From: Pseudomonadota bacterium
Lineage (GTDB): Bacteria > Pseudomonadota > Gammaproteobacteria > JAKAQQ01
Assembly: GCA_021798115.1 (NCBI GenBank)
Contig: JAJZYM010000003.1
Coordinates: forward strand, 1 to 64,000
Length of the DNA stretch: 64,000 bases
Direction of reading: 5' to 3'
Part shown: positions 1 to 52,330 of the stretch, piece by piece
How the letters are laid out: each line of letters begins with the position of its first letter
How positions within the stretch are numbered: the first letter of the stretch is position 1
Position numbers and translations under genes: made by a program
The notes under the pieces: model-generated
What the model saw: the letters and a program-made list of their open reading frames with translations, nothing else
The model's database searches: none
Told to the model about the DNA's origin: nothing

Positions 1-119
1 CTCTGGGGTCGACGTCCGGGGGGACGTCGGGAGGAGGCTCGGTGGGGGTGGGGATGCTTCTCGGGCTTCTGGTCCTGGTGGGGTTCAGGAGGCGGAAGCT
101 GGGAGGGAGGTGCGGCTAG
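1..119 (+). CDS. C-terminal fragment of an exported protein with GlyGly-CTERM-like sorting tail (5' truncated by window edge)
   Basis: Reading frame from nt 3 translates to LGSTSGGTSGGGSVGVGMLLGLLVLVGFRRRKLGGRCG* (stop TAG 117-119): Ser/Gly-rich GG motif, hydrophobic helix, Arg cluster. Not in ORF track because no start lies in the window. Confidence 0.65.
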   Translation, partial: LGSTSGGTSGGGSVGVGMLLGLLVLVGFRRRKLGGRCG

Positions 120-27036: not shown

Positions 27037-27118
27037 GAGCAGTCCTCGAGGCGTTACCGTTGTTTGTGCCCTTGATTACGTGTGCCGATCGAGGTCGGAT
27101 GCGGCACGGGCAATCCTC
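27014..27118. repeat. imperfect direct repeat (copies 27014-27047 and 27085-27118, 71-bp offset)
   Basis: 21-nt identical core GATCGAGGTCGGATGCGGCAC at 27016-27036 and 27087-27107 with near-identical flanks. Confidence 0.85.
27054..27107 (-). other. possible leader ORF VPHPTSIGTRNQGHKQR* sharing start region with downstream gene
   Basis: Second copy of SD + GTGCCGCATCCGACCTCGATC; in-frame TAA at 27056-27054. Confidence 0.35.
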
Positions 27119-30100
27119 TGGTAGTGGTGCAGCAGGGTGAGGAAACGGGCGTCTTCGAAGTGGAACGCCGTCCGCTCCGCGACGGTGGGCCGGTGATCCG
27201 AACTCTCGACGGCCCCGAGGAGCGCCCCGAAGACGCCGTTGAAGCGGGCCGGATTCGCGGCCATCCAGGAGGTGAGGCGGGCGAGGAGCTCTTGCGCCTC
27301 GTGCCGGCCGGCACGGTGGTGGGCGAGTTTCTCGAGGTGCAGACGGAGCGCCCGGGCCGCGAGCACCGTTGCGGTGTCGGTGCTGAGGGCCTCTGCGATG
27401 CGCCGGGCGAAGGCGTACTGAACGTCGAGATCCCGGGTCGTCACCTGAATGCGGGGATCTTCACGCACGACGAGCGGGGCCTCGAGGCGGTGTCCGCCGG
27501 CGATGAGGACGACCGTATAGCGACCGGGAGGCACGAAGGGTCCCTGGGGGGCGACCGGTGTCCGGCCGATGTCTCCGGGTCCGCCCCAACCGTACATCAG
27601 GGCGCGGGGGCGCGCGATGTGAAGATGCCAGACGAAACGGTTGAGCCCCGCCCGATCCGTGAGACGGTTGACCGGAGCACGGAAAAAGTTCGGGAACGCG
27701 GGTTGCGCCAGAGGGTGCGGACGCTCCCGTGTGGCGGAGGAGAATGCCCTGAGGATGTGACCGTGGGGACCCAGGATCTCGAGCCGGATCGGACCGCGGA
27801 GCGGGTGGTCCAGGAAGTAATAAATCAGGGCGCCGTTTTGCGGATTGGGGGCCTGGGGGACTTCCGGCGGGAAGGGCTCGGCTCGGAACATCGTCCGCCG
27901 GATGTGGGTGGCGACCGCCGGGCGGAAAAGCCAGACCCGACGGCGGGCGATCGCCCGCTTCGCCTGCAGAAGCGGGACGATGTCGTGGAACATCCAGATC
28001 CCGCGGCCGTGAGTGCCCACGACGAGGTCGTCGCCGTGGAGGGCGAGATCGTGAATGGCCGTGGTCGGAAGATTGTCCCCGAAACGCTGCCAGACCCGGC
28101 CGTCGTCGAACGAGACATAGAGCCCGAGTTCGGTTCCGGCGAAGAGCAACCCGCGCCGGTCGGGATCTTCACGCACGACGTGCACGTAGGCGTGGGACGG
28201 AAGCCCGCGCGCCCGAAGGCGCCAGCTCCGTCCGCCGTCGTGGGTCACATAGATGTAGGGCCGATCGTCGTTGAGGCGGTGGAGATCAACGGCCAGGTAG
28301 GCGGAACGGGCGTCGAAGGGCGAGGCCGTGATGCGGTCGATCCGGCTCCATGGGCGCAGGCCCCGGGGAGTGACGTTCGTCCAGTGTCGACCCCCGTCGG
28401 TCGTGTGCCAGACGAATCCGTTGGTGGTCCCCACCCAGAGATCCCCCGGCGCCCGGGGCGAGACGGCGATTGTGTAGATCGCCCCGTAGCCGAGGGCGGT
28501 GGCGTTGGCGATCGTGGGGGGTGTCTTCCACGAAGTCGGCCCGTGGATACGCCGGCCGGTGAGATCGGGGCTGATCGCCGTCCAACGGCGGCCGCCGTCG
28601 GACGAGCGCAGCACCTTCTGTGCGCCGACATAGAGCGCGTAGGGCGCCCGCGGGGAGACCGCGAGGGGAACGATCCAGGAATAACGGTACGGGGCCAAGG
28701 GCAGCGGCTGGCCGAAGGTGTTGAGGGGCCAGGGCGAGATGTTTTCGGACAGGCCCGTTCGGCTGTCGTAGCGGCTCACGCTTCCACCGATGTCGGTGCC
28801 GAAGACGATATGGGGGTCGGTCGGGTCAGGGATGGCATAGCCTGCTTCCCCGCCCGCCGTCGCCGTCCAGGAGCGGAGCGTGAGGATCCCCTCGTTGCTC
28901 CGGCTCACGAGATTGAGGCTTCCCGAGTCCTGCTGGGTGGCGTAAATATGGAAGGGGTAGCGGTTGTCGGTTGCCAGCCGATAGATCTGGGCCGTGGGCT
29001 GGTTGAGCCAGGGGGTCCACGTCCGTCCGCCGTCGACGCTGATCGCGACGCCCTGATCGACCCCGAGGATCATGCGCTTCGGGTGGGTGGGCGAAATCCA
29101 CATCGTGTGGAAGTCGTCGCCGCTCGGGGACCCTTTGATGCAGACGAAGTTTTCGCCGCCGTCGAGTGAGCGGTAGAAGGCCGTGTTGGGCACATAGACG
29201 ACGTCGGGGTTCTTGGGATCGACAAAAATTTCGCCGAAATACCAGCCGCGTCGCCAGAGGTTGCGGTCGGCGTTGACGAGCGTCCAGGTATGGCCGCCGT
29301 CGAGCGAACGGTAGATGCCGCCTCCCGGGTGGGCGCTCACCACGGCGTAAAGGAGCCCGTGCGGCGCGACCGCGAGGCCGATACGCCCGGCGCGTGCGAG
29401 CGGGAGGCCGCGGGTCTTGAGCCGCCGCCAGCTCCGCCCGCCATCGCTCGAGCGGTAGACGGCCGAGTTGTGCCCCTCGAGAGGGGGATACTGTGTCCAG
29501 GGCGGGCGCACCGCACTCCAGCTCGTGGCGTAGAGCACGCGTGGGTTGTCGGGGTCGGTGACGAGGTCGGCCACGCCGGTCCGATCGTTGAGCCGGAGCA
29601 CGTGATGCCAGTGCCGCCCGCCGTCGAGGGTCATGTAGATGCCGCGTTCGGGGTTGGGCCCGAAGCTGTGACCGAGCGCCGCAACGAGAACGTGGTTGGG
29701 ATTGTGCGGCGAGACGATGATGTCGGAGATCTGCCGGGTTTTCGTGAGGCCCACGGCGTGCCACGTCCGGCCGCCGTTCGTCGAGCGGAACACCCCGCCC
29801 CCGAGCGAGACATCCGAGCGCATGTCCGCCTCTCCCGTCCCGACGTAGATGATCTTCGGGTTCGACGGTGCGACGGCGATCGCGCCGATCGAGGCGACGG
29901 GGCCGTGCTGGAAGAGGGGTGTCCAGGTGACCCCCCCGTCCTCGCTGCGGAAGACGCCGCCGTCGACCGATCCGAAGTAATAGAGGTTCGGGTGGCCGGC
30001 GACGCCGGTGACGGCGAGCACCCGGCCGCCGCGGTAGGGCCCGAGAAAGCGTGCGCGCAAGGCGTGAAAGAGGGCGGGTGGCATCGGGTGGGGCGCGGCG

Positions 30101-30168
30101 AGCACTGGGGCCGTCGCAAGGAGGAGAAACGCGAGACCGGCGAGAGCGGGGCGAAGGGCGTGGCGCAT
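27076..30168 (-). CDS. large exported BNR/VPS10-like beta-propeller protein (sialidase-like fold, probable glycosyl-hydrolase-related or protein-binding)
   Basis: Signal peptide MRHALRPALAGLAFLLLATAPVLAA; many SxDGGxTW Asp-box repeats. Confidence 0.85.
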   Translation of the reverse strand: MRHALRPALAGLAFLLLATAPVLAAPHPMPPALFHALRARFLGPYRGGRVLAVTGVAGHPNLYYFGSVDGGVFRSEDGGVTWTPLFQHGPVASIGAIAVAPSNPKIIYVGTGEADMRSDVSLGGGVFRSTNGGRTWHAVGLTKTRQISDIIVSPHNPNHVLVAALGHSFGPNPERGIYMTLDGGRHWHHVLRLNDRTGVADLVTDPDNPRVLYATSWSAVRPPWTQYPPLEGHNSAVYRSSDGGRSWRRLKTRGLPLARAGRIGLAVAPHGLLYAVVSAHPGGGIYRSLDGGHTWTLVNADRNLWRRGWYFGEIFVDPKNPDVVYVPNTAFYRSLDGGENFVCIKGSPSGDDFHTMWISPTHPKRMILGVDQGVAISVDGGRTWTPWLNQPTAQIYRLATDNRYPFHIYATQQDSGSLNLVSRSNEGILTLRSWTATAGGEAGYAIPDPTDPHIVFGTDIGGSVSRYDSRTGLSENISPWPLNTFGQPLPLAPYRYSWIVPLAVSPRAPYALYVGAQKVLRSSDGGRRWTAISPDLTGRRIHGPTSWKTPPTIANATALGYGAIYTIAVSPRAPGDLWVGTTNGFVWHTTDGGRHWTNVTPRGLRPWSRIDRITASPFDARSAYLAVDLHRLNDDRPYIYVTHDGGRSWRLRARGLPSHAYVHVVREDPDRRGLLFAGTELGLYVSFDDGRVWQRFGDNLPTTAIHDLALHGDDLVVGTHGRGIWMFHDIVPLLQAKRAIARRRVWLFRPAVATHIRRTMFRAEPFPPEVPQAPNPQNGALIYYFLDHPLRGPIRLEILGPHGHILRAFSSATRERPHPLAQPAFPNFFRAPVNRLTDRAGLNRFVWHLHIARPRALMYGWGGPGDIGRTPVAPQGPFVPPGRYTVVLIAGGHRLEAPLVVREDPRIQVTTRDLDVQYAFARRIAEALSTDTATVLAARALRLHLEKLAHHRAGRHEAQELLARLTSWMAANPARFNGVFGALLGAVESSDHRPTVAERTAFHFEDARFLTLLHHYQRIARAASDLDRHT

Positions 30169-30230
30169 GGCGTCGTCCGGGGAGGGGGTCTTTGGTATTG
30201 TAGGACGAACCCCGTGGCGGGTGACAGGCC

Positions 30231-31055
30231 TTGAACGACCCGGAGAAACTGAGGATTGCACGTTACCCTGCGAACGAGCGGGGACGCGATTTCGTCGTGG
30301 GCGATCTCCACGGGTGCCGTGCCCTCCTCGACCGCCTCTTGGAGGAGGTGGCTTTTGATCCCGAGCGCGACCGGCTTTTCAGCGTCGGCGATCTCATCGA
30401 CCGTGGGCCGGAATCCATGCGTTGTCTGGATCTTCTGGACGAGCCCTGGTGTCATGCGGTGTTGGGCAACCACGAGGTGATGTTGATCGATTTCTTCGCC
30501 CGCGCGCTGGCGCTCGGCGGACGCGTCGTCTGGGAAGAAGAACACGATTTCCTGCGTAACGGTGGCGGCTGGGTGCGGCGCGAACTGGTCGAGGGCGGCA
30601 CCCGCGTGGGCCCGCGTCTCATGGAGGTCTTGACCCAGCTCGAGACCCTTCCGCACCTCATCGTTGTCGGCACGGCCGCCGAACGCTTCCACGTGGTGCA
30701 CGCCGAGCTCGTCCGGCCGGCGGGAGCCTCCTCTCTCGTCTATCGTGACAAGGACATCGACCGCGACTTCGCGCATCTTCACGCGTCGGAGAGGGAGCGG
30801 CTCAAGGAGGTGGTGTCCTGGTCGCGTCGTCTCATGGGGCGGGGGGGGGACGGCTCTGCTCCCGAGACGGTCGAGGGCCTCTCGCCCACCTACTGCGGGC
30901 ACACGCCGGGGTTTTCTCCGCGCCGCCTGGCGTCCCACATCTGCATCGACACGGGGGCGTATCTGCCCTATCTCTTCGCCGAGGAGCGTGGACACGGCTG
31001 GGGACTCACCCTGGTCGAACCGCAAACCGGGGTTTTCACCCGCGCCGAGCCCTGA
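30231..31055 (+). CDS. metallophosphoesterase / Ser-Thr protein phosphatase family (PrpA/ApaH-like)
   Basis: VVGDLHGC, VGDLIDRGP, LGNHEVM motifs; TTG start. Confidence 0.87.
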   Translation: MNDPEKLRIARYPANERGRDFVVGDLHGCRALLDRLLEEVAFDPERDRLFSVGDLIDRGPESMRCLDLLDEPWCHAVLGNHEVMLIDFFARALALGGRVVWEEEHDFLRNGGGWVRRELVEGGTRVGPRLMEVLTQLETLPHLIVVGTAAERFHVVHAELVRPAGASSLVYRDKDIDRDFAHLHASERERLKEVVSWSRRLMGRGGDGSAPETVEGLSPTYCGHTPGFSPRRLASHICIDTGAYLPYLFAEERGHGWGLTLVEPQTGVFTRAEP

Positions 31056-44624: not shown

Positions 44625-45434
44625 TCAGGGAATGCCCGCAGCGGTGAGGGGGAGGACGCCCGAACTCACGAAGTCGTGCACGCCCGAGCGGGGGTTCCCG
44701 GGAAGCGTGTTGATGAAGCCCGCGAGGGCTGCGGGTGCGCCGGGAAGGGCCTTGAGCGCTGCCGTGAGGCGGTAGGTGCCGCGCTCGTGGAGCAGGAGGT
44801 GGGCGTCGATGCTCAGGGTGCGCGGACGGAGGCTTTGGATGTGGATCATGCTGCTCGTCCGGCCTCCGTCTCGCGTGGCCACGAAGACGAGCGTCCCGAG
44901 AGGGAGGGCCGGGGGCCCGCCGAAGCGGGCGTGAACAAGTCGGGCGTTTCCGACGATCGGTCCGAGATGTCCGGGCCCGAGATCGAGATCGAGACGGCGG
45001 AAGACGATCTCCCCGTGCGGGGTGCCGAAGAGAGCGATCGTGGGGACGAACGCCCGAAGGGTGGCGAGGCGAAGGCGGCCGCGGAGTCCACGCACCCGGA
45101 GAGGGTTCGCCAGAACGACGCTCAGCGCGAGCCGCGTGCTCCGGCTCCGCCAGGAAAGCCGCACCCGAGGGGTGAGGCGGACGAGATCGCCGATTCCGCT
45201 GAGACCACGGGCCACGCTCCAGCGAAGCCGTCCGCTGATGCGACCGAGAAGGCGGCACCGCTGGGCGTGTCCCGACCAGACGGTCCCGCGGATGCCGCGG
45301 CAGACAAGGGTGCCCGGCGGAGGCGAGACGAGCGCGTAGGCGAAGCGGGCGGGGAAGGTCGCGATCGCGGCCGCGAGGAACGCCAGGGCGAAGACGATCC
45401 CGAGAAGAAGAGAACGGCGGATCGGGAGACGCAC
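44625..45434 (-). CDS. gspN: type II secretion system protein N
   Basis: Single-TM protein at the end of gsp operon; PARFAYALVSPPPGTLVCRGIRGTVWSGHAQR. Confidence 0.8.
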   Translation of the reverse strand: MRLPIRRSLLLGIVFALAFLAAAIATFPARFAYALVSPPPGTLVCRGIRGTVWSGHAQRCRLLGRISGRLRWSVARGLSGIGDLVRLTPRVRLSWRSRSTRLALSVVLANPLRVRGLRGRLRLATLRAFVPTIALFGTPHGEIVFRRLDLDLGPGHLGPIVGNARLVHARFGGPPALPLGTLVFVATRDGGRTSSMIHIQSLRPRTLSIDAHLLLHERGTYRLTAALKALPGAPAALAGFINTLPGNPRSGVHDFVSSGVLPLTAAGIP

Positions 45435-45439
45435 GGCGA

Positions 45440-45970
45440 TCAGGAGCTGGGCTGGCGCCGCAAGGTCACGCTGGCCGAGACGAGTCCCGAGGCGTGCGGT
45501 TGGCGGCGGAGGGTGAGGGAGCGGACGCGGGCCCCGCTGGCGAGAGCGAAGGCGTGCAGCCAGCCGACGAGGTCCGGGAAGGCGATCGACGAGAAGACGA
45601 TCTTGACGGTTCCCGATCCTCCGGCCTCGATCTTGGTGGCGCTCAAGCCCCGGGCGGCGAGACTTTGCTGGGCGAGGAGCGTGAGCGGCTCGTCCGTCGT
45701 TGGGTGCACATCCTCACGGCGCAGAACCACGACGCGTTGCGCCACACCGTTCATCCACGCGAGCAGGTGGCGGTCGTGGGCGACGGCGCGGCGGTCCGTA
45801 CTCCGGGCGGAGAGGAGAGGCATCACGGCGAGGCGCGCGACGAGAAAGAGAGCGAGGACGATCCCGCCCACGGTGACCGCGAGACGTTCGCGCGGAGCGA
45901 GTGCCCGGTAGCGTCTCCGAAGCTCGTCGAGGAATTCCATCTCATCCCCCCTGGCTCTGGAGGATGACAC
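45440..45970 (-). CDS. gspM: type II secretion system protein M
   Basis: FLDELRRRYRALAPRERLAVTVGGIVLALFL; position between gspL and gspN. Confidence 0.85.
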   Translation of the reverse strand: MSSSRARGDEMEFLDELRRRYRALAPRERLAVTVGGIVLALFLVARLAVMPLLSARSTDRRAVAHDRHLLAWMNGVAQRVVVLRREDVHPTTDEPLTLLAQQSLAARGLSATKIEAGGSGTVKIVFSSIAFPDLVGWLHAFALASGARVRSLTLRRQPHASGLVSASVTLRRQPSS

Positions 45971-47138
45971 GGGCGTGCGTCATGCCGCCCGCCGTTGTGA
46001 GCCCCGCGGTTTTGGCCCGGATCCCGGCCCTCTGATCGAGCGTGTGCAGGAAGCGGACGAGGTCCTGGCCGGAGGGGTCTTCCACCGTGAGCACCAGTCG
46101 TCCGCTGCGGTAGTCGGCGGTGTCGAAGCGCAGCCGCGAGGGCCGGGCGGCCGCGGCGTCCGCAAGGAGCCGGGCCCAATCCCCGGCCGCTGCCCGGCGC
46201 TCGAGGTGGCTCAGCCCACGGGACATCTGGACGCGGATGTCGACGATGTGACGGTCTTCGGGGAAGGTGCGGTGGAAGAGAGCGACGATGCGCCGCTCGA
46301 GAACGCTTCGCTCGTGACCGTAGTGGAGGACGTCAAGGCCGAGATGAATCCAGAGGACGAGAAGCCAGGCAGCGGCCAACACCACGCTCGTCCGCCACGT
46401 CCTCCACTGCTCCCCCGCGCGCGAGCGTTGGGCGGCAAATCCCGCGAGGAGATCGAGACGCGGCGGGCTCGTGTCGGCCTCGGCGAGCCAGTCCCCGGAA
46501 CGCGGCTCCCAGAGGTTGTCGGGGATCTCTTTCAGGCGGGGAACGCCGTAGGAGGCGACGGATTCGGGGAAACGCCCGTGTTCCCGCGCCTCGCTCCCAA
46601 GCCGCTCGAGGTAGAGCGGAAGGAGATCGGGATGGAACGCTCCGCCGAGCGCGTGCCCGTGACGGACGAGAATGCGCTCGGGTCCGTCCTGGGCGAGGGT
46701 CCAGCTTCCCGGCCGCCACGGGAGGAGGAGCGCGTCGGGCACGAGGGCCTCGACCGCAATCCCGCACTCCTCGAGAAGGGTGTGCCAGCGCGCGAGGTGC
46801 TCGCGATTCGCGACGGCCGCCGTGAGGCGCCCGTCGTCCTCTGCCCCCTCGGCGAGGTGAAAGGCCAGGGTCTCGACGTCCTCGAGGAGCTGCTCCTCGA
46901 GGACGTAGGGAAGAGCCTGAAGCCTCTGGCGCCGTCCGCGGACGGGAAGCGTCACGGGGAGAAGGGCCACGGTTTCGGAGGGAGCGGCGACGATGGCCCT
47001 GTGCGTTCCGAGACGGGCCGCCACATCCCGTAACGGCAGGGCTACGGGCGGCGAGGGGTTCGCGCCGCCGCTTCGCCAGAGGAGCACCGTCTCGTCGGCT
47101 GTCGCGGCGTTGCCGATTTTGAGGAAAGTGCGTTCCAC
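45942..47138 (-). CDS. gspL: type II secretion system protein L
   Basis: Actin-like cytoplasmic domain (RQRLQALPYVLEEQLLEDVETLAFHL) plus TM and periplasmic region. Confidence 0.9.
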   Translation of the reverse strand: MERTFLKIGNAATADETVLLWRSGGANPSPPVALPLRDVAARLGTHRAIVAAPSETVALLPVTLPVRGRRQRLQALPYVLEEQLLEDVETLAFHLAEGAEDDGRLTAAVANREHLARWHTLLEECGIAVEALVPDALLLPWRPGSWTLAQDGPERILVRHGHALGGAFHPDLLPLYLERLGSEAREHGRFPESVASYGVPRLKEIPDNLWEPRSGDWLAEADTSPPRLDLLAGFAAQRSRAGEQWRTWRTSVVLAAAWLLVLWIHLGLDVLHYGHERSVLERRIVALFHRTFPEDRHIVDIRVQMSRGLSHLERRAAAGDWARLLADAAAARPSRLRFDTADYRSGRLVLTVEDPSGQDLVRFLHTLDQRAGIRAKTAGLTTAGGMTHARVILQSQGG

Positions 47139-47169: not shown

Positions 47170-48087
47170 TCAGTCGCTCACGAAACGCCGCGAGAGAACC
47201 CGTGTCCACCCCTCGGGCGAGCGGTAGAGGAGGGAGCGAAGGCGCACGTGAGCACCCGCAAAGTGTACCCGCAAGTCAAGGCGGAAGTAGTTGCTGGTGA
47301 CGCCGAGCGGGACCGTGGTCTGGACGCCAAGCAGGCTCGCGAAAAGGGACGTCGAATTGAATCCCCCTTTCCGTTGGGCGAGCTCGATGTTTCCCAGATT
47401 CGTCTCCGGGATGTTGGGGGCGAGGGCGGCGAGGACAGGGCCGGGGGCGGTGTTGACGTTGAGGGGCACGCCGCTCGGAAGGGCCGAGACGTACGGGCGG
47501 AGCTCGAGATAGGCGGCCCGCGTGACACCGGCGACGAGGAGGAGCTCGCTCACGCTGGTCATGGGTTCCTGGGCCGCGCGGTAGGGTGGGTCGCGTGATT
47601 CGTAGAGTGAGGCCTGGGCGTCGCTGGCCGGTCCGGGCGAGGCCATCCAGTCGGCGACGTTGGTGGCGAGGTCCGCCGGAAGACCGAGTTCGGAGAGAAG
47701 CCGCATGAAGACCACGACCTCCGTCGGGTCGATCGCCCCCTCGGGCGTGATGAGGTTGTTGAGGTTGAACCGCCCTTCGAGGTCGACGACGCGTCCGGCG
47801 ATGCGTCCGTGCGGGAGCGGGAGCGGCGGGAGTCCTTCGGCCCACGCCTGGGTGAGGGTCACCGGTCCCTGGGCCGGCATGGCCTCGAGGAGCTTGCGGA
47901 CGAAGGTCGTGCCCGAAATCGCGTAGAGGACGGCTTGCTGGGAGCTGAGGAGATGGCGCGTGGCCTCGTAGGCGACGGCCCGTCGCCACTCCATGCGTGC
48001 CGCGACCGAAGCGGCGATGGCCACCACGACGAGCGCGAGGATGAGGGCGACGCCCCGCGGATCGCGACGGCGGGCCGGCGGACTCAC
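47170..48087 (-). CDS. gspK: type II secretion minor pseudopilin K
   Basis: RGVALILALVVVAIAASVAARMEWRRA, YRAAQEPMTSVSELLLVAGV, LNVNTAP. Confidence 0.92.
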   Translation of the reverse strand: MSPPARRRDPRGVALILALVVVAIAASVAARMEWRRAVAYEATRHLLSSQQAVLYAISGTTFVRKLLEAMPAQGPVTLTQAWAEGLPPLPLPHGRIAGRVVDLEGRFNLNNLITPEGAIDPTEVVVFMRLLSELGLPADLATNVADWMASPGPASDAQASLYESRDPPYRAAQEPMTSVSELLLVAGVTRAAYLELRPYVSALPSGVPLNVNTAPGPVLAALAPNIPETNLGNIELAQRKGGFNSTSLFASLLGVQTTVPLGVTSNYFRLDLRVHFAGAHVRLRSLLYRSPEGWTRVLSRRFVSD

Positions 48088-48722
48088 GGGAGATCCACGA
48101 TGAGGCGCAAGCGTCCCATCCCGCGGACGCGGAAACTCAGGCGGACGGCGCGCGGTCGGCGGTTCAGGAAGAGGAGGGGGTTCGCGGCGAGCGGTGGCCA
48201 GTTGTGGTGCCAGTGGCCGTCGACATCGAGCAGCCGCACGTGGAAATCGCGAACGTGGCGGAGAAGAGTCGTCGTGTGCGGCCTCATCGGTCGGGCCCGG
48301 TCCAGGACCGGCCAGCGGTACAGGAGGAGGCGGTGGTCACGCACCCCGAGACCCAGACGTGTGAGCCCGGATTGATCGCGGTAAAAGATCGCCTGGCCCG
48401 TCGCGGTGGTGAAGACGAGCCGCGGGCGTGAGCCGACCGTGGCGCGGAAGGCGGGGCGCAGCACGCCCTGGGCGTTACGGATCGGGCGCGCGCTCGCCTC
48501 GGAGAGGAGACGGGAGAGCTCGACGAGCGTGAGGGAGACACGACCGACGCTCTTTTCGACGCCGTGCGTTCGTTTCGCCTGGTGAAGAATCGTTCCGAGA
48601 ATGCCGTAGGCCATGACGGCGAGGATTGCGAGAACGGCGGTCGCGACCAGGATCTCGATGAGCGTGAAGCCCGAACGGCGGGACGCATGCCGCGGGCGGA
48701 GCGGGGCAGACGGCGGTCTCAC
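48084..48722 (-). CDS. gspJ: type II secretion minor pseudopilin J
   Basis: RRSGFTLIEILVATAVLAILAVMAYGIL prepilin motif. Confidence 0.92.
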   Translation of the reverse strand: MRPPSAPLRPRHASRRSGFTLIEILVATAVLAILAVMAYGILGTILHQAKRTHGVEKSVGRVSLTLVELSRLLSEASARPIRNAQGVLRPAFRATVGSRPRLVFTTATGQAIFYRDQSGLTRLGLGVRDHRLLLYRWPVLDRARPMRPHTTTLLRHVRDFHVRLLDVDGHWHHNWPPLAANPLLFLNRRPRAVRLSFRVRGMGRLRLIVDLP

Positions 48723-49276
48723 GGCGGCGGGAAGGGCGCCCCCGGCGGGCCGCCGCCCGGCGCGCCCGGCCCAAGGACCGGCATGGGCAGACCCACGGGA
48801 AGCGTGCCCGGCGTGCCCGGTGCGCCCGGTGTCGGGAGGGCTCCCTGAGGTGCGTTTTCGGCCTCGATTGCAGCCGCCGAAGGGGGGGCGTAGAGTGCAA
48901 TCAGGGTGGCGAGCGTGTCGTGCGGACTCTGGGCGGGTGCGACCTCGACACGGATCTTGTAGAGCCCGGGCAGAACGCTCGTGCGTGCGTGCATGCGCCA
49001 GCGCCAGCGTTGCGGGCCCATTGTGGTGCTGCCGCTCGTCCAGCCGAGCACCGGTGGCTTGGGCGAGAGGCGGGCCTCCTCGATGCGGTTCCAGGCCACC
49101 CAGTCGGCGAGCGTGCGTGCGCGGAGCTCCCCGGCGACGCGGACGCTCTCGCTTGCAACGCCGAGGAGCGCGAGGAGCGCGATGGCGACGACCGCAAGCG
49201 CGATGAGGACCTCGATCAGGGTGAATCCCCGGCGACGGTCTCCCCCGCGGCCGGGTCGAACGGCCGTCTCAAGCAC
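48719..49276 (-). CDS. gspI: type II secretion minor pseudopilin I with Pro/Gly-rich C-terminal tail
   Basis: RRRGFTLIEVLIALAVVAIALLALLGVASES; GTG start at 49276; tail TPGAPGTPGTLPVGLPMPVLGPGAPGGGPPGAPFPPP*. Confidence 0.9.
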   Translation of the reverse strand: MLETAVRPGRGGDRRRGFTLIEVLIALAVVAIALLALLGVASESVRVAGELRARTLADWVAWNRIEEARLSPKPPVLGWTSGSTTMGPQRWRWRMHARTSVLPGLYKIRVEVAPAQSPHDTLATLIALYAPPSAAAIEAENAPQGALPTPGAPGTPGTLPVGLPMPVLGPGAPGGGPPGAPFPPP

Positions 49277-49895
49277 CTTGATGTTGGGCCAGAAGATGCG
49301 GGGGAAGGAGTTCGACGCGTCCGTTCGGTTTGCCCTCGAGCCCGTAGGCGTGCTTGAGTGAGCGTCCTCGGACGCGGATGACGATCGTGAAACCCGGCAG
49401 GATCGCGCGCGTGTCGAGAAGCACGATCTGGGGGCTGTGCCGCGCGGCCTGGGCGGAAGCCCGCTTGCGCCGGTGGCTGTGGTCTCGCCCGTTGCGGTCG
49501 AGCGCGCGGATCCCTTCCGGGGGGCGCGCGGCGTGCCGCAGCCGCGCGAGATCGACACGCGTGCCGAGCAGACGCAGGCGCAGACGGAGATCGTGGGAAA
49601 GCCGACGGGCGCGATAAACCGATCGTTGGGGGAAGCGTTCCCAGACGCCGTCGTGACGCTGGTAGAAGACATAGCCGTCCCGGCTCACACGCAGCCCGTA
49701 GCGGTTTCCGGTCAGCACCGCCTGCTGGGAGGCGAGTTCGATCAGGCCCGCGAGACGGCGGGCGGCCTGCTCGCTTCGCGGTGCCCGCCCGATTGCGCTC
49801 AGCGAAACGACGGCAATCGCGGTCAGGATCCCGATCACGAGGAGCACGACGAGGATCTCGACCAGGGTGAACCCCCGTGGCGGGGACGGCCTCAC
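49269..49895 (-). CDS. gspH: type II secretion minor pseudopilin H
   Basis: PPRGFTLVEILVVLLVIGILTAIAVVSLS; GTG start at 49895. Confidence 0.9.
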   Translation of the reverse strand: MRPSPPRGFTLVEILVVLLVIGILTAIAVVSLSAIGRAPRSEQAARRLAGLIELASQQAVLTGNRYGLRVSRDGYVFYQRHDGVWERFPQRSVYRARRLSHDLRLRLRLLGTRVDLARLRHAARPPEGIRALDRNGRDHSHRRKRASAQAARHSPQIVLLDTRAILPGFTIVIRVRGRSLKHAYGLEGKPNGRVELLPPHLLAQHQGA

Positions 49896-50347
49896 GACCC
49901 GCCGCCTCCGTGGGCGTCGAGGGTCCAGTTGCCGATCACGTGATGGTGGCCGGGGGGGCCGTTGGTCCAGACGTTGAACGAGAGACCCCCGTGGATTCCG
50001 GGATGGATGTATTTGTAGGGGTGGCCCCAAGGATCGATCGGCAGGTGATTGAGATAACGGTGCCAGTGATGGGGGATCGGCGGAACATCGGGTTTGCGGA
50101 CGAGAGCCTCGAGTCCCTGATTCGTCGACGGGTAGCGGTAGTTGTCGAGTTTGTACATCTCGAGGGCGGCGTCGATGGAGCGGATGTCCGCTTCCGCCTT
50201 CGTGATGCGGGCCTCTTCCGGTTTGTTGATGACGTTCGGCACGATGATTGAGGCGAGGATGGCCAGGATGACGACAACGACCATCACCTCGATGAGGGTA
50301 AAGCCCCGCGATCGGGGCGGGCGAAGAAGCGAACGGGACCGGGTCAT
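49892..50347 (-). CDS. gspG: type II secretion major pseudopilin G
   Basis: RSRGFTLIEVMVVVVILAILASIIVPNVINKPEEARITKAEADIRSIDAALEMYKLDNYRYPST. Confidence 0.95.
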   Translation of the reverse strand: MTRSRSLLRPPRSRGFTLIEVMVVVVILAILASIIVPNVINKPEEARITKAEADIRSIDAALEMYKLDNYRYPSTNQGLEALVRKPDVPPIPHHWHRYLNHLPIDPWGHPYKYIHPGIHGGLSFNVWTNGPPGHHHVIGNWTLDAHGGGGS

Positions 50348-50569
50348 GGGTTCTCCGGGCGAAAGACTCTGGGTCGTGGAGCGTCGATCCGCGGGGCGGG
50401 GTGAGATTCGCTGCGGATAGGGGCTCACCTCGGCTAAGCTTACACCACACTCCGGGGCGGGGCAGAAGCTTGGCATCGCCTCAAATCTTGGACCGCCCGG
50501 CGTCCTCCGGGTTCGCCGGGCCGCCCGGGGGAGGGGTCGTGAGAGTTGTCCGTGACGTGGAGTTCTTCG

Positions 50570-51274
50570 ATGAATGACGAGACCGCAGGAGCGCCGCAAG
50601 CGCACCGCTGGCATGCGTTCGGCTGGTTTCCGCAGGGCGGGGGGAATATCCTTCAGAGGCTTTGGCAGGCCAATCCGTTCTGGCTGATCCCGCTGATCGC
50701 CCTGGCGATTCAGATCGCGGGTCCGCGGCTCTGGATGCAGCTGCGTTACGACCGTCTCGCCATCAGCGCCGGACAGTGGTGGAGAATCGTGACCGGCAAT
50801 TTCGTCCACGCCGGATGGGTTCACCTGGGGCTTGATTTCTCGGGGTATTTCCTCCTTTGGTATCTCTTCGCCCGCACCCTCGGCGGCCGACGCTGGTGGT
50901 GGGCGACCCTCTGGGGGAGCCTTGCCGTCGGCGGGGGGCTCTATCTTTTTAGCCCCGCCGTGCGCTGGTACGTGGGGATCTCGGGTGTGCTTCATACCTA
51001 CTGGGGTGCGGGGGCCCTTCTCGCAGTCGAGCGCCGCGAGTTCCTCGGCCGTTGGCTTCTCGCGTTTCTCATCCTGAACGTGGCCTACGAGGTCATCTGG
51101 GGGCCCTTGCCGACATCGGCCGCCATTCTCAAGACCCCGATCCTGACCGTCGCGCACCTTTACGGAACCATCGCCGGTCTTGTCCTGGGTGCGGTCTGGA
51201 TCGTGATCGACCGGCGGCGATCCCGCACGGCGGCGGCGCGGCGCACGGACGGTGGGGAGCCCGCTAATCTATAG
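50570..51274 (+). CDS. rhombosortase (rhomboid-family intramembrane serine protease for GlyGly-CTERM proteins)
   Basis: WWRIVTGNFVHAGWVHLGLDFSGY, catalytic Ser motif GISGVLH, catalytic His in AHLYGTIAGLV; multi-TM. Confidence 0.85.
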   Translation: MNDETAGAPQAHRWHAFGWFPQGGGNILQRLWQANPFWLIPLIALAIQIAGPRLWMQLRYDRLAISAGQWWRIVTGNFVHAGWVHLGLDFSGYFLLWYLFARTLGGRRWWWATLWGSLAVGGGLYLFSPAVRWYVGISGVLHTYWGAGALLAVERREFLGRWLLAFLILNVAYEVIWGPLPTSAAILKTPILTVAHLYGTIAGLVLGAVWIVIDRRRSRTAAARRTDGGEPANL

Positions 51275-51376: not shown

Positions 51377-52330
51377 ATGAACATGGCCATGGTTTTCCCC
51401 GGTCAGGGCTCGCAGAGCGCGGGCATGCTTGCCGATCTCGTGGACGAGCCGGTCGTCCGTTCGGTTTTCTCCCTCGTCTCGGACGTCCTGGGCGAGGATC
51501 TCCTCACGCTCCTCCGCTCGGGTTCGGACGCCGATCTTGGGCGCACGACGGTGACGCAGCCGCTCATGCTGGCCGCCGATGTGGCCCTCTACCGGCTGTG
51601 GCTCGAAGGCGGCGGTGAAAAGCCGGTGGCCCTTGCGGGTCACAGCCTCGGCGAATACGCAGCCCTGGTTGCCGCCGGGGTCTTCTCGCTCGCGGACGCC
51701 GCTCGTCTGGTTGCCCGCCGCGCCCGCCTCATGCAGTACGCGGTTCCCGAAGGTCGGGGGGCGATGGCCGCGGTCCTCGGCCTCGACGAGGGCCGCGTCG
51801 TGGATGTTTGCCAACGCCTCGCCGGTCCCGGCCGGGTCCTGGAAGCCGTCAATTTCAACGCCCCCGCGCAGGTGGTCGTGGCCGGAGACGCCGAGGCCGT
51901 GCGCGAGGCGGAAGCGCATTTTCGCGAGGCGGGGGCGAAGAAGGTTATCCTCCTGCCGGTCAGTGTGCCCGCCCACTCGAGCCTGATGGCGTCGGCCGCC
52001 CAGCGCTACCGGGTGGATCTGATCGCACAAGAGTGGATGCCGACGCGCATTCCCGTTGTGCACAACGTCGACGCCCGCGTCCACCCCGACGCGTTTGATT
52101 ACCCCGAGCTTCTCACCCGCCAGTTGGCGAGTCCGGTGCGCTGGACCGAGAGCGTTCGTCGTCTGGCGGACGACTTTGGCGTGGATGTGGTGCTCGAGTG
52201 TGGTCCCGGCAAGGTTCTCGCCGGGCTCGTGCGGCGGATTCTTCCCGAGACGCCCGTCTTCACGCTCGGAGAGGCGTCGGGTCGCGAAGCCGCTCGGGCC
52301 CATCTGAGCGGCCGGGGAGGACGTTCATGA
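51377..52330 (+). CDS. fabD: malonyl-CoA--ACP transacylase
   Basis: MVFPGQGSQSAGM, GHSLGEYAAL. Confidence 0.95.
   Translation: MNMAMVFPGQGSQSAGMLADLVDEPVVRSVFSLVSDVLGEDLLTLLRSGSDADLGRTTVTQPLMLAADVALYRLWLEGGGEKPVALAGHSLGEYAALVAAGVFSLADAARLVARRARLMQYAVPEGRGAMAAVLGLDEGRVVDVCQRLAGPGRVLEAVNFNAPAQVVVAGDAEAVREAEAHFREAGAKKVILLPVSVPAHSSLMASAAQRYRVDLIAQEWMPTRIPVVHNVDARVHPDAFDYPELLTRQLASPVRWTESVRRLADDFGVDVVLECGPGKVLAGLVRRILPETPVFTLGEASGREAARAHLSGRGGRS

Follow-up and report, generated by a model that had tools for sequence, protein, structure and literature searches.

In Vibrio cholerae the rhombosortase RssP cuts VesB before its export by the type II secretion system (T2SS): the cut falls after the second glycine, a glycerophosphoethanolamine-containing group is added, and the T2SS then exports the protein to the surface (PMC6219818, PMC11389362). 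Three motifs define the rhombosortase subfamily, WRxxS/T, SGxLH and AHxxGxxxG, and Haft and Varghese did not find a T2SS subclass tied to it (PMC3237569). Here we describe a rhombosortase gene carried, next to T2SS genes, by a 64,000-nucleotide stretch of gammaproteobacterial DNA (the window).

The gene (50570-51274, forward strand; ATG at 50570, stop at 51274) encodes 234 residues, to which an alternative TTG start at 50546 would add eight. Its product matches the rhombosortase model TIGR03902 at 124.6 bits (curated cut-off 84) and the Pfam Rhomboid family (PF01694) at 55.8 bits. The motifs WWRIVT (50777), HAGWVHLGLD (50807), GISGVLH (50975) and AHLYGTIAG (51152) are present, WRIVT in loop L1 and AHLYGTIAG in TM6 matching the subfamily patterns WRxxS/T and AHxxGxxxG, respectively. 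SGVLH spans residues 138-142, Ser138 and His196 are the predicted catalytic dyad, and His85 and Asp89 occupy the HxxxN position. A rhomboid of the ordinary GlpG type that the model had mis-scored would likewise match PF01694 and align with the GlpG structures as this ORF does, but that reading has next to no chance of being right, refuted as it is by two features: the hallmark His142 of SGVLH replaces GlpG Tyr205, a position at which neither Tyr nor Phe is found here, and the score lies 40 bits over a cut-off that is not exceeded in any of 14 control genomes containing ordinary rhomboids. An earlier note on this DNA had called the ORF a rhombosortase from its hallmarks, and the TIGR03902 search set beforehand as a test of that call returned a match over the cut-off and not a plain rhomboid; with all the published motifs there, the identification is confirmed at the level of sequence. 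The organism appears to lack GlpG, because a whole-genome Pfam search revealed no second rhomboid, in an assembly (97% complete, 38 contigs) from which a rhomboid gene may have been missed.

The divergent gspG neighbour

Head-to-head with the rhombosortase gene, on the reverse strand, lies a run of T2SS genes each recognised by NCBIfam and/or Pfam models. The major pseudopilin gene gspG (49892-50347; TIGR01710, 145.4 bits) is followed by the minor pseudopilin genes gspH (49269-49895; N_methyl domain, with TIGR01708 at 79.7 bits, 0.3 bit under the cut-off of 80), gspI (48719-49285; TIGR01707, PF02501) and gspJ (48084-48722; TIGR01711, PF11612), and then by gspK (47170-48087; NF037980, 250.8 bits), gspL (45942-47138; TIGR01709, 207.1 bits), gspM (45440-45970; PF04612, 96.3 bits) and gspN (44625-45434; PF01203, 62.7 bits). 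Model searches place gspD and gspE together on a separate contig, so that the T2SS genes of this genome, gspG-N plus gspD and gspE, are split over two places. On its other side the rhombosortase gene is directly followed by fabD (51377-52330, forward strand; TIGR00128), a neighbour conserved by synteny in the clade, within the order fabD-fabG-acp-fabF-mltG-tmk, in which fabD was assigned by model and the rest from translations and conserved order. Elsewhere in this genome (G000), several T2SS/T4P-type ATPase matches near secretin-like matches (contig C36, 97512-112039) are probably type IV pilus genes, separate from the T2SS studied here, and a 1061-residue ORF of the window with Sortilin-Vps10/BNR repeats (27076-30261, reverse strand) is possibly a large exported protein.

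The intergenic region, put by the earlier note at about 220 bp, measures 222 bp between the divergent start codons (50348-50569) and is presumed to hold both promoters. It is approximately 90% identical, with uninterrupted conserved blocks, to that of the sister species, the only one comparable, and a consensus scan found in it no sigma-70-like promoter and no terminator. A putative co-regulation of rhombosortase and gspG through this common spacer is plausible.

Searching contigs with the protein recovered a single relative (the sister species YF3.bin4), and the survey was therefore run with the family model. In the organism's own family the rhombosortase is present in eight of nine genomes (the ninth is 65% complete), and gspN-G divergent from rhombosortase-fabD is the order common to all eight. 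The wider survey gathered 120 rhombosortase loci from a 369-genome class sample and relatives, 121 with the window, in which gsp and fab genes were annotated by profiles from the own family and a few relatives. Divergent gspG was found at 47 of these loci, directly adjacent at 46 and 2.5 kb away at one, and still at 39 of the 113 outside the own family; by family group the layout appears in 25 of 65 (24 by strict adjacency), the chance expectation for such a neighbour being about one per thousand genes. Two loci, both from a single family, have an adjacent gspG that is oriented differently, and at 72 gspG is absent within the fetched flank. Genomes with a rhombosortase carry gspG in 119 of 126 cases, against 123 of the 243 others (odds ratio 16.6, p 2e-19, kinship ignored).

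Given direct divergence at 46 of 121 loci and in 24 of 65 family groups, the head-to-head layout is not a local accident. It could nevertheless be an old one, kept by descent, in which case rhombosortase and gspG would not be co-regulated and their neighbourhood would be uninformative on function. To this reading, with which the lack of a recognisable promoter pair, the 72 loci without a nearby gspG and the likewise retained fabD operon, which has no evident functional link, are all consistent, we give appreciable but clearly less than even weight, as against it the layout recurs across families, needing about 22 changes on a rhombosortase tree of which many forks are unresolved, and rhombosortase and gspG co-occur far above expectation. 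The most likely reason for the adjacency of the two genes is a cargo common to the protease and the secretion machine. The connection that the earlier note had drawn between rhombosortase, GlyGly-CTERM proteins and type II secretion is thus backed by conserved synteny, which the survey proposed there has revealed, and by gspG co-occurrence. The partnership, formerly argued from co-occurrence and from experiments in V. cholerae, gains a direct genomic link in some 24 family-level groups. No published description of the divergent layout was found in the part of the literature available to us, beyond which a report may exist.

Candidate substrates and their probable processing

At least four tails in this genome exceed the cut-off of the GlyGly-CTERM model TIGR03501, one in the window (30-95) and the others on contigs C1, C33 and C8. 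That of the window belongs to a candidate substrate cut by the contig edge, of which the C-terminal 38 residues, SGGTSGGGSVGVGMLLGLLVLVGFRRRKLGGRCG, are encoded at 3-119 on the forward strand (21.0 bits, cut-off 15.5). TIGR03501 is a short model that gives weak E-values (0.002 to 0.006 per genome); what makes the tails convincing is their basic end and their place at the C-terminus. They were read out at true C-termini, a further example being SSGALGPLSLVVLGVVLVLRRRGRRSSV. Weak matches inside proteins L006 and L008 were rejected as they are not C-terminal. Ig/cadherin-like domains occur in the C1 and C8 proteins and a beta-propeller in that from C33, and contig-end fragments on C5 and C23 bear GSGAMG(L/P)WALVLL..RRRR tails that score below the cut-off. 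The window (contig C34) itself starts inside a gene, the last 38 codons of which are nearly identical to those of the C1 and C8 genes. Several GlyGly-CTERM genes are located at contig ends; the assembly was probably interrupted by repeats of this gene family, which makes the substrate count a lower bound. All seven related genomes searched have TIGR03501 matches, over the cut-off in six. The GlyGly-CTERM proteins elsewhere in the genome, on which the earlier note had made its reading depend, are accordingly present.

We consider it very probable that an active inner-membrane rhombosortase trims GlyGly-CTERM tails before T2SS export, and that Asp89 leaves the protease active. The enzyme is predicted to be located in the inner membrane, where exported precursors would be anchored by the hydrophobic helix that lies in their tails between the Gly/Ser motif and the basic end. 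Ser138 and His196 would cleave near the GlyGly motif, and the trimmed protein, possibly conjugated to lipid by analogy with V. cholerae VesB, would then pass to the T2SS, for which gspG-N provide pseudopilus and platform genes, and so to the cell surface, in this putative order. Asp89 in place of the oxyanion-side Asn would be a long-kept substitution of the lineage that retains protease activity.

Aspartate at the HxxxN position

Residue 89 is encoded by GAT at 50834. Profile alignment to GlpG structures and the HxxxxHxxxN/D pattern equate the two motif histidines with GlpG His145 and His150, and Asp89 with Asn154, a residue that contributes to the oxyanion hole (PMC3690538) and has been described as dispensable for catalysis (PMC2989971); no paper on GlpG N154D was found in the literature available to us. 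The Asn of HxxxN, replaced here by Asp89, is common in rhombosortases but not listed as defining: the 121 sequences have Asn in 106 cases, Asp in 14 and Gly in one, while all of them share the catalytic Ser, the His of TM6 and the motif His. Every one of the eight own-family (f1) enzymes has Asp, as do three from two other families (f41, f148). These eleven group as a single clade (SH-aLRT 96) when the tree is calculated without the Asp/Asn column, and gspG and fabD are neighbours of the gene in every case. The suggestion that Asp in HLGLDFSG marks a divergent group is borne out by this clade, and alignment and tree indicate that HxxxD is a genuine replacement of HxxxN and an old one.

The remaining three Asp cases are scattered on the tree. 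Two of them (G153, locus L199; G348, L205), and the Gly case (G265, L206), come from genomes in which gspG was not found and, unlike the main Asp clade, are possibly decaying or repurposed copies. The f41 member of the Asp clade (L077, 9733-10401, reverse strand) has SGALN instead of SGxLH, the hallmark His being changed to Asn. Residues near the catalytic Ser vary with Asp89 in the clade (Ile137, Thr143, Tyr144 and Trp145), but their functional coupling to it is not separable from shared descent, because the clade is single, and Thr143 also occurs together with Asn, in the sister family, and is missing from the scattered Asp cases.

Because Asn takes part in the GlpG oxyanion hole at this position, Asp89 could lower activity. 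The Asp clade might indeed consist of weakened proteases, or ones of altered specificity, in which loss of the hydrogen-bond donor that Asn154 supplies in GlpG would leave an enzyme that mainly cleaves slowly or binds GlyGly-CTERM helices in the manner of a chaperone. Asp is rare elsewhere, which fits this reading, but the clade has retained Ser, both His and the motifs around them over long branches, and substrates with canonical tails persist in related genomes, which makes such a loss unlikely. That Asp has been kept for so long while the dyad stayed intact argues for a functional enzyme. Far less probable still is an enzyme class of altered chemistry, in which for instance the carboxylate would aid attack of the phosphatidylethanolamine amine on the acyl-enzyme and the rhombosortase itself would join the trimmed protein to lipid; were this true, it would act as a true sortase. 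The Asp clade offers natural variants of the rhomboid oxyanion residue, in an organism where the rhombosortase is the only rhomboid detected.

Relation to described rhombosortases and rhomboids

The enzyme resembles V. cholerae RssP (PMC6219818, PMC11389362) in its subfamily, Ser/His dyad, GlyGly-CTERM substrates and T2SS link, and differs from it in having Asp for the usual HxxxN Asn and in the position of its gene, which diverges from gspG and precedes fabD. V. cholerae has in addition a GlpG-type rhomboid that can cut the same substrate at another site, whereas none was found in this genome. Shewanella oneidensis SO_2504 (PMC3237569) has the same WRxxS/T, SGxLH and AHxxGxxxG motifs, but reads GLSGMLHGL where our sequence has GISGVLHTYW, and the HxxxD motif is a further difference. 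With GlpG of E. coli and H. influenzae, for which structures are solved, the fold family and the positions of Ser201, His254 and His150 are shared, while Tyr205 and Asn154 of GlpG correspond to His142 and Asp89. The rhombosortase locus is a variant of a known system; noteworthy are the divergent pairing with gspG, which recurs, and the Asp clade.
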